Of a stretch of 64,000 nt of DNA, positions 37,688 through 49,385 are shown piece by piece. The notes under the pieces are model-generated. The model saw nothing but the letters and a program-made list of their open reading frames with translations, made no database searches and was not told where the DNA came from. Both the position numbers and the translations under genes were made by a program. The DNA is from Spiroplasma endosymbiont of Cantharis nigra (lineage in GTDB: Bacteria; Bacillota_I; Bacilli_A; Mycoplasmatales; Mycoplasmataceae). The stretch lies in assembly GCF_964019925.1 (NCBI RefSeq), contig NZ_OZ026470.1:930001-994000 (forward strand). Reading direction: 5' to 3'. Numbering within the stretch: position 1 is the first letter of the stretch; each line of letters starts with the position of its first letter.

Positions 37688-38404
37688 TTATTTTAAATCT
37701 ATAGATGCTTCTAATGCTAATTCTATCATTCCCATAAAATTATTTTGTCTTTCTTCAGCTGTTGTTACTTCTTTAGTAACTAAGCTATCTGAAACAGTTA
37801 ATAAACAAGCTGCTTGTTTATTTGTAAGTTTTGCATTTGCAAATAATGCAAACGTTTCCATTTCAACAAGAGCTAAATTATTAGCTTTTGCAAAATCTAA
37901 TATATTTTCATATCTATAAAAAACATCAGATGAGTGACATCTTCCACTATGAATTTTAATATTTTTTTTCTTTGCAACTTCCTCTATTTTTTCAAATAAT
38001 ATTTTACCCGCTTCAATTATATTTGAATCAATATTAGCAGCAATTTTTGCATAGTTATTTTCTCCAAATGATTCTTTAACATTAAAAATATCATAAACTT
38101 TAATTTCTTCTTTATAACTTCCTGCACTTCCAACTCTTATTATGTAATCAACATCATAAAATTTAAAAAGTTCATATGAGTAAATTCCAATACTTGGACA
38201 ACCCATTCCACTTCCAGCAACAGTTATTTTTACACCTTTGTAAGTTCCTGTATACATAAACATATTTCTAACTTCATTTACAAGTTTTACATTTTCTAAA
38301 TATGTTTCTGCTATTTTTTTTGCTCTTAATGGATCTCCTGGCATTAATACAATTTTTGCTATATCTTCTTTCTTAGCATTAATATGTGGTGTTGGTATAT
38401 TCAA
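37688..38404 (-). CDS. deoD: Purine-nucleoside phosphorylase (DeoD type), TTG start
   Basis: DeoD cleaves purine (deoxy)nucleosides to base and (deoxy)ribose-1-phosphate. The 238-residue protein begins LNIPTPHINAKK and continues IVLMPGDPLRAKKIAETYLE, YTGTYKGVKITVAGSGMG, RVGSAGSY, VEMETFALFANA and LTVSDSL. The start is TTG at 38404: AAAGGAGGA lies 8 nt before it and the N-terminus then aligns with E. coli DeoD. The reading frame stays open upstream but there overlaps the permease gene. It follows the nucleoside ABC operon, which fits salvage of imported nucleosides. Confidence 0.95.
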   Translation of the reverse strand: MNIPTPHINAKKEDIAKIVLMPGDPLRAKKIAETYLENVKLVNEVRNMFMYTGTYKGVKITVAGSGMGCPSIGIYSYELFKFYDVDYIIRVGSAGSYKEEIKVYDIFNVKESFGENNYAKIAANIDSNIIEAGKILFEKIEEVAKKKNIKIHSGRCHSSDVFYRYENILDFAKANNLALVEMETFALFANAKLTNKQAACLLTVSDSLVTKEVTTAEERQNNFMGMIELALEASIDLK

Positions 38405-38445
38405 TTTAATATTCCTCCTTTTTACCAAGGATATTTTAACTAAAT

Positions 38446-38474
38446 AAAAAAAAATTTCCATAGAAATTTTTTTT
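38446..38474 (-). terminator. Terminator-like hairpin between the ABC operon and deoD
   Basis: AAAATTTC/GAAATTTT stem (38451-38458 and 38463-38470) with a CATA loop and A/T tracts on both sides. deoD has a strong ribosome site but no obvious promoter, so partial read-through is likely. Confidence 0.65.
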
Positions 38475-38480
38475 ATTAAT

Positions 38481-39422
38481 TTATCTTTGCGTTTTATCAA
38501 ATGGTATTCCATTTGCTTTTGGTGGTTTTGATTTTCTTGCAAAAATCATCATAATTACTAATGACATTACAAATGGTAGTATTCTAAATAATGAACCATT
38601 TGTTTTCATTCAATCTCCAGCATTTTCAATTACTGGAAGTCTTGTACCAAAAGCAAACATTAAAGAGAATACAAATGAGAATAATGCTATCATACTAATT
38701 CTTCATTGTCCTAGAATCATAATAGCAAGTGATATGTAACCATACCCTTGTACTGATCCTGCAAAACTACCTAATAGTCTTGATACAACGAATATAGCAC
38801 CTGCTAATCCAGCAAGCATTCCTGAAATTAGTATACAAACTATTCTATATTTTGTAACTGATATTCCAGCTGAATCTAGTGCATGCGGATTTTCACCTGC
38901 AGCTATATGTCTTGTACCTGTTTTGGTAAATGTAAAGTAGAATCCAATAATAAGAGAGATAATTATAGCTATAACAAGATATAGCGTAATTATTATGTTA
39001 ATTCCTGATCCAATCCCAATTACCATGAAATTAGTTGCAATATAGTTTTCTGGCCCTGTTAATGTTGACGTTGCAAGAACTAATGCAATTCCTTGAGCCA
39101 AAATATTTATTGCAGTACCTGATATTATTTGATCTCCCTTTAATTTTATTGCTGTAAAAGCATGAAGTAATGATAATAGTCCTCCCATCATAGCTCCAAT
39201 AAGTAATCCAACTAATTGTCACCATTGACTTATTTCAGCACCTGATGAATGAACTACATATCCAAATATACTATATCCTAAAGCTCCCATTGTCATAAAT
39301 CCTTCAATTCCAAGATTTACAACTCCAGATCTTTCAGAAAACATCCCAGCAATAGCTGCTAACATAAATATTGCAAAGAAAGTAGATGTATCACTAAACA
39401 ATGCACTAATGAAGTCTGTCAT
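38481..39422 (-). CDS. Nucleoside ABC transporter permease (second permease)
   Basis: The 313-residue protein belongs to the BPD_transp_2 permease family (YufQ/NupQ type). Features are FSERSGVVNLGIEGFMTMGA at the N-terminus (the usual RxGvvNLGiEG motif), KLKGDQIISGTAIN and TRHIAAGENPHALDSAGI. About 9 TM segments. It overlaps the first permease gene by 17 nt. With the BMP lipoprotein and the two-domain ATPase it makes a complete nucleoside importer. Confidence 0.94.
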
Positions 39423-41085
39423 ATTTATCTTTCACCTCCACTAATCTTTCAAAATATTCTTTTTTGATTTTTTCAGTATCTTGATTTTCCTTTAAATTTT
39501 CTTTATATTTAATTTTTAAATCCTTTATAAAAATTTTTGCTTCTAATTTGGAAGCAAGATAACTTTCCTTTAATATTTTTATATCTTGTTTTGTATTCTC
39601 AATAAGTTCCGTACACTCTTTAGAAATATTTGCTTTTTCTTTTTTATCATGATGACTTACTTTTGCAATTATTATATCAAGAGTTATAAACTGTCTTTTT
39701 GTTTTTTTATTATGAAAATTAATATTTAAACCCTTAATTGAATTTACTTCATAATTTTTATATCCATTTTGAATTGCATCTTTAATTGACTCTTTTAAAA
39801 CAGAGATATTTTTTAAATATTTTCTATTATAAAAAGTTTTTAATTCATTATATTGATAAGAAAGCTCTGAAAGTTTTTGTTTATCTCCTTTAGAGACACT
39901 ATTAATTTCTTTTTTAATATTAGCTAATTCTTCTAAATTTGGAATTTCTTTAATTAATTTTTTTATATTTTTAATTTCTTTTTTATAAATTGCTATTTGA
40001 TTTTTTGTAACTATATCCTTTTCAAGATACAATTTCTCTTTTATTTTTGTTCACAAATTTAGTTTAATAAATATGATATAAAGTGTTGAACAATAAATTA
40101 TAATACCAAAAATTAAATCTGCCACCTCTGGTTGTAAATTATTGAATCCTGGTGTTGTTATTGCAACTGATGCTCCTTCTTTGACAATTGCTCAAAATAA
40201 TGCAATTGGCACAATACCTAAAATATTGTTAAAGGCAACCAAAGCAATTGGAATACCATCGAAACCAAGTTGAGGAACTAAGTCCTTATTAAAAGTTATA
40301 CTACCTTGAATTAAGAAATAATAGAAGAACCCAGCCATGCTTATTAGAGCTCCTTGAATAGCCATAACCATTAAGATGTAATATTCACTTTTAATACCAG
40401 CATATTTTGCAGCAGTTGGTGAGTTACCAATTACTTTAACTTTATAACCTGTTGTTGTAAATGTAAATACAATATAGACTACAATAACAGATATTAATGC
40501 TAACATAACACATAATGCTCACAATGAATTACCAAGCATAGCCATTGATTCATTTAATGAAGGAGACGCTGCAGGTGTTCCTGAAACTGTCATATATCAT
40601 TTTAATAAGTATCAAAATATTCAATTAAGTAATATTGAAGAGGCAACCTCATGTACATTTAAATAAACTTTCATTGCCCCACAAATTACAGATATTAACA
40701 TTCCAGAAATTATAAACATTATAAAAATTAAGAATGCATTTTTTGTATCGTTACCAATTGAGTTCATTATTATATATGACATTAATAATCCTGATAGGAT
40801 TTGTCCTGAACCACCCATATTAAATATTTTTAATTTAAATCCCAGAGCTAAACCTAATCCAATTAGTATATATACTCCAAAGTAAACTAATGTTCTTTCA
40901 ATATTTGTTGATAATGCTCTTACAAATGCTGTTCCTAAAAAAGCAAATCCATTTTCACCATTAGTAAATATAAATAATACACCTACAAAAAGACCAAGTA
41001 AAATTGATATAACTGAAGACTTAACAAATCCCAATTTTTCTGTAAATCCTGGTGATTTAACAAAAGCCTCTATTTTTACTTTCAT
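39406..41085 (-). CDS. Nucleoside ABC transporter permease with a long coiled-coil tail
   Basis: The 559-residue protein has an N-terminal permease of the YufP/NupP type (about residues 1-345, with TYKVKVIGNSPTAAKYAGI and PQLGFDGIPIALVA). The reading frame continues into a Lys/Glu-rich, almost wholly helical tail of about 208 residues (352-559) starting at YLEKDIVTKNQIAI. I followed the frame through the junction: the last TM helix (LIFGIIIYCSTLYIIFIKL) runs straight into the tail without a stop. Ordinary YufP permeases lack this tail. It is cytosolic by topology and may touch the ATPase. No strong ribosome site precedes the start. Confidence 0.92.
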
Positions 41086-41101
41086 AGTTCATAGTTTAAT
41101 T

Positions 41102-42649
41102 TTAAACATTTACACTAACTCCTTCCACATTAGAAGTCATTAATTGACCAATTTTTTCCTTAGTCGCTTCTTTTTTACTTAACTTTCCAATAATATTTCC
41201 AGAGTTAAGAACAACAATCTGATCTGCTAATTGCATTACTTCTGAAAGTTCATATGAAATTAATAATATTGCTTTTCTATCCTCTTTTGCTTTTAATATT
41301 TGCTGATGTATAAATTCAATTGAACCAACATCTAATCCTCTTGTAGGTTGAAAAATAATTATAAAATCATTTTCTCTTGAAAGTTCTCTACCTATAATAA
41401 CTTTTTGTTGATTACCTCCAGATAGATCTCTTACAACTCTAAAACCAGAGTCCGAGTTTCTTACATCATAGTCTTTTATTATTTTTTGAGTGTGATTTTG
41501 TACTTTTGCAAAATTTACAAATCCCCATTTACTATACTTACTAGTTGAAATATCTTGTAAGGTTGTGTTATTTATAATATTTGCATCTAAGACTAAACCA
41601 TGCTCATGTCTATCTTCTGGAATAAAACTCATTTTATTTTTTAAATATCTTTTTGAAACTGAAGACTTTGTAATATCTTCACCTCTATAAAATATTTTTC
41701 CACTTACTGGTTTTGTTAAACCACTAAGTACTGCGGCAATTTCGTTTTGTCCATTGCCTTCAACACCAGCAATGGCAACTACTTCACCCTCTTTTAACTC
41801 TAAATTAAAATTTTTCAAACCAATAACTTTATTATTACTATGTTTTTTAACATTGATATTTTCAAATTTAATTACAGTTTCACCTGTTTTAGAAGTAGAA
41901 TTATTTTTAACTTCAACAAGTGATCTTCCAACCATTGCTTTTGAAATATCTTTGATACCTATTTTTTTAACATCATAAGTACCAACATATTTTCCTTTTC
42001 TTATAACAGTTGCTTTATCAGCTACTTTTTCTATTTCAGCAAACTTATGAGTTATAAAGATAATTGTTTTACCCATCTTTTTAAACTCTAACATAACATC
42101 TAATAATCCATCAATCTCTGTTGGAGTTAACACAGCAGTAGGTTCATCAAAAACAAGAATATCTGCATCTCTATATAGAATTTTTAATATTTCAACTCTT
42201 TGCTTCATACCTACAGATATATTTTGAACTTTTTTATTTAAATCTACTTCTAAATTATACTTATGCATTAATTCCACTGTTTTTTGAATAACTATTTTTT
42301 TATTAATAAATTCTCAACCTATTACATCTTCAGCACCTAAAGCTATATTTTTCCAAACAGGTAAAATATCAATCATTTTAAAATGTTGATGAACCATTCC
42401 TATTCCTAATTTTGTAGCCTTTATTGGAGAAGTAATTATTTCTTCTTTACCATTTATTTTTATAGTGCCCTTTGTAGGTTGGTATATCCCAAATAGAATT
42501 GACATTAGTGTCGATTTACCAGCACCATTTTCACCAACTAAACAATGTATTTCTCCTTTTTCAACTTTAAAATTAATATTTTCATTTGCAATAACTTTTT
42601 TATTAAAAATCATTGAGATATCTTCCATTTCAATTGCATAATTAATCAT
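41102..42649 (-). CDS. Nucleoside ABC transporter ATPase, two nucleotide-binding domains
   Basis: The 515-residue protein has tandem ATPase domains like YufO/NupO and RbsA. Domain 1: Walker A VGENGAGKSTLMSILFG, signature ISVGMKQRVEIL, Walker B ILVFDEPTAVLTP. Domain 2: AGVEGNGQNEIAAVL in place of Walker A (no Lys-Ser/Thr, as usual for this class), FIPEDRHEHGLV, signature LSGGNQQKVIIGREL. It starts directly after the lipoprotein stop codon (TAA then ATG). Confidence 0.96.
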
Positions 42650-44032
42650 TTAGAAAGTACCTCCTAAAGTAATATTTAGAATTTTATCTGCATAAGCCTT
42701 AATTGTTTTTTCATTAATTAATGATTTTTCAAAACTGTTATTATCAATTGTTTCAAATAATTCTATTGATGCCTTTGTTAATACATCAGGTTCAAAAATT
42801 AAAAGTATTTTTTCTTTCAATTCAGGTGTAGCTAAATTTCTACCTCCAGCTGACATATTACCACCAACTCAAAGTGTTCTTCCAACTTTACCTTCTTCTC
42901 ATTGAGAACTACTTCAAGTTTTTTCATCATCAAGCGCAACTGCAACAAATTCTTCCTGTTCATTTTTTTCAGTTAAATTAATTTTATCTTTTAAATACTC
43001 TGCAGTTTTTTTAACAACACCCTCATGATTTTCAATTCAATATGGTGTATGTGCTAAACCAACTATAGTAGCATTCTGAAGATCCTTTTCAGCACTTGTT
43101 AAGAATATTCCTTTATTCTGAGGAAAAGCTTCTGCTTGATTCGTATCTACACCAATTACTTTTACAGTTTCTCCTCCATCTTTTTGTTTTGAAAGACCAA
43201 CTACGTCTATAGTTTGTGGTCCTGCAACTGGCATTATAAAGTTTGCTCCATTTTGTATCAAAGTACTTGATACAACTAGCCCATCTCCTTGTTGAAATGA
43301 ATTAGAGTATCAACTAGCATCTGATGGAGAATTAGGAAATTGACTTTGAGTCATTTTGACTTTTTTTGTGAAATCTTGTTCATTTAAATCAAAATCATTC
43401 TTAAGTTTTTCCTTACCTTGATCAGTTTTTTTTAGTTCATTGAATACCTCAATAGCAGCTAAATATCCAACAATAAATGCATCTACTGCTCTTGGATTTG
43501 ATATTCCACCAAAAGATCCAAGAGAAATTTCTTTATATTTATCTTTTTGTTGGAGACCTCAAATTATAGCACTCATTCCTGCATAAAAGCCAGAAATATC
43601 TCCTCTAAAGCTAAATGCAAGTTCATTTGTTGCAGAACTTTCTCCATCTAGGAAAATAGTTGAGCCTTTACCGCTCATTACTTCTGGAGCATAATTTTCA
43701 CCTTCCCCAGGCATTGCATGGTGAAAGCCAGGTAATAAAATAGTTTTTGCCCCATTATTTCTGGCATTTCTATATTGATTTTTCATTACCTTTGAACTAC
43801 TATTTTCTGGTTCAATTTTAGATATTTTTAAATCTTTTTCTTGAAGAACTTCTTGAAGAAACTCATTTCCTGCTTTAAAAGTTGATTCATTAAAAGATTT
43901 ATCAGAGATTTTACCTGCATCTGTTACTAAATATATTTCTGATATTGCAGATAATTTACTACACGAAACTAGACTAGAAGTTGATGAGCAAACAACAACC
44001 CCAGCCATTAATCCTGAAAGTAATTTTTTCAC
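42650..44032 (-). CDS. BMP-family nucleoside-binding lipoprotein
   Basis: The 460-residue surface lipoprotein is the substrate-binding part of the importer. The signal peptide MKKLLSGLMAGVVVCSSTSS ends in a lipobox whose Cys is at residue 24 (SLVSC), the site of Lgt and LspA action. The Bmp domain begins IYLVTDAGKISDKSFNES, the family nucleoside-binding signature. The length exceeds the usual 350 residues, mostly in the C-terminal third. The start is GTG at 44032, 10 nt after AGGAG. A purine-riboswitch-like element sits in the leader. Confidence 0.93.
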
Positions 44033-44094
44033 TTCGTTTTTTCTCCTATATTTATTTATTTGTGTAAACTAATTATTGCTATTATTTTTGATAA

Positions 44095-44201
44095 AAAGGA
44101 CTTTATATATGTAAATTAAAAATTCCTTTAATTTATTTGCTTTTAGGAAATGTATCGGTACATTGTAGAAACATCAACCCTTTATGTCGACTTATAAAAG
44201 C
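44095..44201 (-). promoter_or_regulatory. Purine-riboswitch-family aptamer and expression platform
   Basis: On the minus strand the aptamer spans 44201-44149. P1 is GCTTTTA/TAAAAGC (perfect 7 bp). J1/2 is TAAG. P2 is GTCGAC/GTTGAT with loop ATAAAGG. J2/3 is GTTTCTA, identical to the purine class. P3 is AATGTA/TACATT. The core residues U22, U47, U51, A52 and C74 (xpt numbering) are present. C74 predicts a guanine-type ligand, not adenine. L3 is only CCGA instead of seven bases, so it is a variant. Downstream, TTCCT (44159-44155) can pair with AGGAA (44127-44123), competing with AAAGGA/TCCTTT (44129-44124 and 44100-44095) followed by TTTAT. That fits ligand-induced termination. Confidence 0.82.
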
Positions 44202-44222
44202 TGTTATTTAATTTACACTTTT

Positions 44223-44228
44223 ATTATA
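44223..44228 (-). promoter_or_regulatory. -10 box of the nucleoside ABC operon
   Basis: TATAAT on the minus strand puts the start near 44216, about 15 nt before the aptamer P1. No good -35 is seen. Confidence 0.55.
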
Positions 44229-48973: not shown

Positions 48974-49385
48974 TGGTGGAGATGGCGGGAATCGAACCCG
49001 CGTCCAAAATACTCCAACCCATAACGTCTACAGTTTAGTTGTCTCTAACTTACACTAAAAACCAACAGAGTCAACAAGATTTAAATTTCTAGCGCTAATA
49101 ATTATTTTCAAACAAATTTATTATTAGAATCATTTGTTCTATTGTGCTAGGTAATACGTTAATCAATGAAGCACAAACACACTTCATAACGTTAAAACAC
49201 TATAAACTTTAAAAGTTTATTAAGCTGCTAAAGCAACTCCAGCTGATGCATTATTGATCATAAATGCTGGCATTTCAAATTCATTTTTTTCTTCGTTTGC
49301 ATTTTATCAAACCTAGTAGTATTAAGGTCTACCAAACCACTGCAGTTATGAGTCGGCCATATCCTGTCGAAACCGGGACACCCCC
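48974..49385 (-). ncRNA. ssrA: Transfer-messenger RNA (tmRNA)
   Basis: tmRNA rescues stalled ribosomes with SmpB. The 5' end GGGGGTGTCCCGGTTTCGAC pairs with CATCTCC before the encoded ACCA. The T arm GGTTCGATTCC is at the 3' end. The tag reading frame runs from 49300 to 49223, followed by TAATAA. It encodes 26 residues beginning ANEEKNEFEM, with PAFM and NN in the middle, and ending LAA. The LAA end and the MPAFM block resemble Spiroplasma tags. smpB lies about 1.4 kb away in the same orientation. Confidence 0.97.

Follow-up and report, generated by a model that had tools for sequence, protein, structure and literature searches.

A purine-family riboswitch with a guanine-type pocket, a four-nucleotide L3 and a conserved long-range helix in the leader of a nucleoside transporter operon of a Spiroplasma endosymbiont

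In aptamers built on the purine riboswitch scaffold, the residue at position 51 separates two kinds of ligand, with U51 giving selectivity for nucleobases and C51 for nucleosides (PMC8872408; PMC9295807). The 2'-dG-I riboswitches hold at this position the nucleoside-selective residue C58, where both guanine and adenine switches have a U, and their pocket is formed by C31/C58/C80, that is, C/C/C at positions 22/51/74; an L3 of four nucleotides has already been published for this class (PMC8872408). In the 2'-dG switch of M. florum, it has been demonstrated by NMR that the antiterminator arises when the 5' aptamer strand P pairs with the switching strand T (PMC5838219). Two other relatives, guanine-II and xanthine-II, occur in Paenibacillus and other Firmicutes (PMC9295807).

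The aptamer described here is encoded in the genome of a Spiroplasma endosymbiont of Cantharis nigra, within a stretch of 64,000 nucleotides (the window, positions 930,001 to 994,000 of contig NZ_OZ026470.1). An earlier note on this DNA had announced a guanine-family riboswitch ahead of a nucleoside ABC operon, an assignment borne out by the RF00167 match, covariation and gene context. All the aptamer parts that it named (P1, P2, P3, the J2/3 core and C74) have been found, but on the minus strand: according to our reading of the sequence, the riboswitch RNA runs from 44201 to 44095, and a plus-strand reading was dropped for this reason. In this direction, the TATAAT box is followed by a 5' leader, the aptamer, a terminator-like element, a Shine-Dalgarno sequence and the GTG start at 44032. 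The gap between the TATAAT box and P1 is 21 nt, not the 15 nt first claimed. The features of the locus are the following:

44223-44228, minus strand: TATAAT -10 box (from the sequence; TATAAT-like in orthologous leaders)
44208-44218, minus strand: GUGUAAAUUAA, the 5' strand of the long-range helix P0, located at the transcript start or close to it
44139-44201, minus strand: purine-family aptamer with guanine-type pocket U22/U51/A52/C74 (RF00167, RF01510, covariation, junction parse)
44201-44195 and 44145-44139, minus strand: P1, GCUUUUA/UAAAAGC
Between P1 and P2, minus strand: J1/2, UAA
44191-44186 and 44178-44173, minus strand: P2, GUCGAC/GUUGAU
Within P2, minus strand: L2, AUAAAGG, with its GG at 44179-44180
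44172-44165, minus strand: J2/3, GUUUCUAC, standard 8 nt without insertion
44164-44159 and 44154-44149, minus strand: P3, AAUGUA/UACAUU
44155-44158, minus strand: L3 tetraloop CCGA, with the CC for the L2 GG (44179-44180) kept
44146-44148, minus strand: J3/1, UCC, whose last C is C74
44091-44129, minus strand: terminator-like element AAAGGA...UCCUUUUUAU, weak here (folding; strong in orthologous leaders)
44111-44120, minus strand: UUUAAUUUAC, 10-bp complement of the 5' strand inside the terminator-like element, candidate antiterminator partner
44078-44085, minus strand: second block of P0, AUAAUAGC, complement of the P1 5' strand GCUUUUAU with one mismatch
44062-44072, minus strand: distal 3' strand of P0, UUAGUUUACAC, past the terminator, with 12 nt separating it from the Shine-Dalgarno sequence
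44043-44049, minus strand: Shine-Dalgarno sequence AUAGGAG (from the sequence)
42650-44032, minus strand: BMP/PnrA-like nucleoside-binding lipoprotein gene, GTG start (PF02608; PDB match 2fqw)
41102-42649, minus strand: ABC transporter ATPase with two ABC domains (PF00005)
39406-41109, minus strand: ABC permease 1 (PF02653)
38481-39422, minus strand: ABC permease 2
37688-38542, minus strand: DeoD-type purine-nucleoside phosphorylase (TIGR00107, 261.6 bits, cut-off 232)

A search of the whole genome with the RF00167 covariance model returned this aptamer as its only match, with 41 bits (E 1.3e-5), above the gathering score of 37 bits. The local Rfam scan, whose program hid the weaker match of the same clan, lists it as RF01510 (2dG-I) with 37.1 bits (E 2.8e-6), under the gathering score of 51 bits of that model. 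When the whole window was scanned with gathering thresholds, neither RF00167 nor RF01510 was listed, a silence that is put down to filtering or competition between models and does not mean absence. Likewise, the consensus promoter scan did not list the TATAAT box, because no good -35 is present.

The three-way-junction structure is settled by covariation, a check on orthologous leaders that the earlier note had proposed. In alignment A1, which holds 14 such leaders, 97.4% of the P1, P2 and P3 cells are paired, as against just 26-43% in slid registers, and 13 of the 19 pairs show two-sided changes, a number reached by none of 500 shuffles. The alignment and the sequence both confirm the L3 of four bases (CCGA) with its CC kept; this CC and the GG of L2 are invariant in the 14 leaders, and from their conservation a GG/CC tertiary contact between L2 and L3 is predicted. 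U22, U51, A52 and C74 are found in this aptamer and in all the orthologous g1 leaders, while J3/1 measures 3 nt here and 2 nt in most relatives.

The first gene downstream, read with genetic code 4, encodes a lipoprotein recognized by PF02608 (30.3 bits, cut-off 24.1) and by a PDB match to TmpC/PnrA (2fqw, E 9.6e-4). The deoD-type gene, the final one of the apparent operon, probably has its true start downstream of the listed TTG. The best NCBIfam names of the transporter genes are "putative B6 ABC transporter", far under cut-off, so it is the BMP and DeoD proteins that point to a nucleoside substrate. An operon for the import of purine nucleosides and their phosphorolysis to free bases, with feedback by guanine, fits this gene content. 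Elsewhere in the window, a tmRNA gene is located at 48974-49385 on the minus strand (RF00023, 123 bits).

BMP genes are present in all 60 family genomes, and the pockets of their leaders differ among genera. The guanine-type pocket is kept in the window's genus; in g8 it is combined with a long L3; g7 (labelled Mesoplasma-like from its 2'-dG/nrdF content) and g3 have C22/U51/G52 (C51 in G013), and g2, g10 and g11 have U22/C51/A52. At least three pocket types are therefore found on one transporter operon, which thus offers a ready-made natural series in which the evolution of specificity can be tested. In the BMP leader of G031 (L213), the aptamer has apparently been lost, and the P0 boxes GTAAATAAAC / GTTTATCTAC remain together with a terminator-like hairpin.

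The short L3 had been taken in the earlier note as a sign of changed ligand, a suggestion that the family census does not support. This census comprised 199 non-overlapping RF00167/RF01510 sites in 60 genomes of the bacterial family, whose junctions were parsed; the genome search gave no match for G043 and G042, although both leaders hold the aptamer. Outside genus g8, L3 is as a rule the tetraloop CCNA. This loop accompanies the guanine-type pocket U22/U51/A52/C74 in 31 of 36 parsed sites of the window's genus, the adenine-type pocket (U74) ahead of NCS2 permease and adenylosuccinate synthetase genes, the 2'-dG-I pocket C22/C51/G52/C74 before nrdF and lipoprotein genes (26/26 by motif count), and also the C22/U51/G52/C74 group. 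Moreover, L3 measures 7 nt in the purE leaders of G032, G044, G046 (and G036), all members of the window's genus, where it is 4 nt long in the other leaders of guanine type. Since one tetraloop serves all pocket types and both lengths coexist in single genomes, L3 length is, as far as these sequences indicate, a lineage trait and no predictor of the pocket. Its shortening is accordingly no sign of a new specificity, loop shape being separable from ligand choice, and may have preceded the switch to 2'-dG.

Several pockets recorded in the census deserve mention on their own. Adenine-type aptamers (J3/1 ending in U) with a 4-nt L3 occur in g7, g10, g11, g2 and g12. Sixteen aptamers with U22/C51/A52/C74 and a normal J3/1 precede BMP, ribonucleotide reductase and other genes in G001, G002, G051-G055 and G059; judged by its residues, this is a 2'-dG-like pocket distinct from 2'-dG-I and 2'-dG-II. 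Seventeen aptamers with C22/U51/G52/C74 and J2/3 GACCUGC are located before guaA and BMP genes in G003 and G007-G013. Tandem BMP genes, each with its own aptamer, are found at G001:C1:611083 and 612890 and at G002:C1:54045 and 55695; in both tandems, a guanine-type pocket (U51) is combined with one that has C51.

In addition to the aptamer, the orthologous leaders share the long-range helix P0, in which GUGUAAAUUAA (44218-44208) is complementary to UUAGUUUACAC (44072-44062), a pairing kept in 14/14 leaders. When four complete BMP leaders (G000, the window's genome, and G040, G045 and G035) are folded to minimum energy, P1 is open and P0 closes around P2, around P3 in most of them, and around the downstream hairpins. 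In A1, P0 is paired in 89.6% of the cells, a percentage inflated by the trimming by hand of the segments around its boxes; 12 cells carry two-sided changes (as many in 0/500 shuffles), and the covariation score is 0.206, compared with 0.015-0.078 for slid registers. RNAalifold picks the outer block of P0 over P1. The number of P0 pairs with two-sided changes, four, is not striking, as it was equalled by 49 of 500 shuffles, and the second block is badly aligned in some distant leaders. In G039, the second base of P1, its P1 partner and its distal partner have changed together (GUUUUUA / UAAAAAC / AUAAUAAC). The shuffle test applied leader by leader is weak in AT-rich leaders, and many single leaders are non-significant, so it is the comparison across leaders that argues for P0.

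A further 16 leaders with purine riboswitches (NCS2 permease, hpt and others) contain an analogous 5'-end helix, UGUAAUUAAUAG : CURUUAAUUACA, which is 98.3% paired, with 7 cells showing two-sided changes. Here the distal strand, located upstream of the terminator or inside it, probably serves as the antiterminator. Long A/U-rich 5'-end pairings in the g8 hpt leaders were set aside, as they look like low-complexity matches. Regarding P0, it may be conjectured that after read-through it holds the aptamer open and closes the 5' end. The broader proposal, that P0 is a family-wide module acting after the decision, which dismantles the aptamer, caps the 5' end and stabilises escaped mRNAs so that they stay on, is put forward tentatively, as a possibility we regard as somewhat short of even. 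If confirmed, P0 would add a step past the usual riboswitch decision, outside the coverage of the Rfam model.

With respect to the expression platform, nine orthologous leaders (G040, G041, G039, G034, G035, G033, G030, G028 and G045) have, directly 3' of the aptamer, a terminator with a U-tail, whose predicted energy ranges from -12 to -21 kcal/mol. The terminator of G042 is weaker (-5.3 kcal/mol), and in G000, G029 and G043 the AAAGGA...UCCUUUUUAU element reaches only about -3.3 kcal/mol; the consensus terminator scan found none at this element in the window. The strength of the nine and the weakness here make it likely that transcriptional OFF control by termination is the ancestral mechanism, perhaps weak in the present lineage, and in the window's genome it may have decayed, given the weak element and its absence from the consensus scan. 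Of the competing pairing offered earlier (UUCCU/AGGAA against AAAGGA/UCCUUU), the off-switch remains plausible; AAAGGA/UCCUUU is homologous to strong terminators of relatives, although weak here; UUCCU/AGGAA is unconserved, and was dropped as antiterminator because the nearest relatives, G029 and G043, read UACCU (U-to-A).

An antiterminator formed by the 5' strand would fit better. In folding of the growing transcript, with energies that exclude both the ligand and the L2-L3 contact, the aptamer stands alone at 84-102 nt (-11.0 kcal/mol), and from 108 nt the 5' strand and the P1 5' strand pair with the 5' half of the terminator (-16.0 kcal/mol). A similar pairing with another sequence is predicted in G040 (CUUUUAU/AUGAAAG, AUUAAAAAG/CUUUUUAAU; -18.5 vs -17.0 kcal/mol). 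This pairing is not a clean switch, because in the energy model its outer block, which pairs with 44120-44111, can coexist with P1 (-15.6 kcal/mol with P1 forced). For G034, G035, G041 and G042, the fold predicted ahead of the terminator is not that of the antiterminator. Because of these four folds and of the coexistence with P1 in G000, we infer this step rather than read it directly from the folds.

Three other explanations of the locus have been weighed. The aptamer could be a sensor of 2'-deoxyguanosine (or guanosine) of the 2'-dG-I type, given that RF01510 is the top match of the local scan and that this class likewise has a 4-nt L3; this is nevertheless very improbable, since that score lies below its gathering score while RF00167 clears its own. 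The 4-nt loop, here CCGA, is a shared feature but is not diagnostic, because within the family it is also found in aptamers of the guanine and adenine types. The pocket differs from that of 2'-dG-I: positions 22/51/74 are U/U/C, with U22, U51 and A52 in place of C22 (C31), C51 (C58) and G52 (G59), and J2/3 is of the 8-nt UUUCUAC type, not GACCCGC. Other purine classes fit no better, as C74 occupies the position where adenine riboswitches have U74, and J2/3 GUUUCUAC lacks the insertions of guanine-II and xanthine-II, with U51 retained where xanthine-II shows U51G. From the guanine-type pocket (U22, U51), guanine is therefore the predicted, and likely, ligand of the aptamer at 44139-44201.

The two remaining alternatives concern the expression platform and P0. 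The weak terminators of G000, G029 and G043 against the strong ones of nine relatives, together with an aptamer that is diverging in the sister G042 (changes in L2, J2/3 and L3) and lost in G031, would suit a relict, in which the aptamer persists over an eroded platform and read-through into the operon is more or less constitutive. We consider this unlikely, in view of the intact pocket and helices of G000, G043 and G029 and of the AAAGGA/UCCUUU and T-run kept in the terminator element; terminators of mollicutes, besides, can be weak. Somewhat less likely still is a role of the inverted boxes GTGTAAATTAA / TTAGTTTACAC as operators to which a repressor binds in the DNA, instead of as an RNA helix. 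Inverted repeats at the transcript start do occupy typical operator positions, and the 3' box is better conserved than its partner, but the genome contains only four copies of the motif GTGTAAAYTAA, which is evidence against a general operator: two copies are the P0 pair, and the other two have no inverted partner nearby. The spacing between the boxes also varies, two-sided changes preserve the pairing (column 10-118: UA 8, AU 5, GC 1), and RNA folding selects the P0 helix.

The preferred reading, which we hold to be probable, is that of a guanine-class riboswitch with the 4-nt L3 typical of the family, controlling an operon for purine-nucleoside import and phosphorolysis as a transcriptional OFF switch. 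In this mechanism, DeoD would release guanine directly from guanosine, and bound guanine would hold P1, so that the AAAGGA...UCCUUU element ends transcription. When guanine is missing, the 5' strand of the RNA, including that of P1, would pair with the 5' half of the terminator as an antiterminator (ON), and in the mRNA that is read through, the 5' strand would then pair with the box before the Shine-Dalgarno sequence (P0), breaking P1 and closing the 5' end.

Compared with known systems, the locus resembles guanine-I riboswitches (RF00167, e.g., B. subtilis xpt-pbuX) in its three-way junction, its U22/U51/A52/C74 pocket, the GG/CC of L2 and L3, and the predicted OFF control, at the level of transcription, of genes for purine uptake. 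It differs from them in a shorter L3 (4 nt against 7 nt), a 3-nt J3/1, a weak terminator, and an antiterminator that is probably provided by the 5' strand and not by the 3' strand. In the Mesoplasma-like genomes G008-G013, the 5' end of the 2'-dG-I nrdF leaders, CAACUGAAUAUAAAAG, pairs over 16 bp with the terminator U-tract and the sequence just after it. With the M. florum 2'-dG-I switch (RF01510, nrdF leader), which according to the genome search belongs to the same bacterial family, the locus shares the 4-nt L3, a similar P2/L2 and, by our inference, an antiterminator drawn from the 5' strand (P with T); the sequence and length of J2/3 set them apart, as does the C22/C51/G52 pocket of that switch, in contrast to U22/U51/A52 here. 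Finally, guanine-II and xanthine-II (PMC9295807) illustrate that the same scaffold tolerates extra nucleotides in J3/1, and guanine-II also keeps U22, U51 and C74, but both carry insertions in J2/3, which here has its standard 8 nt.
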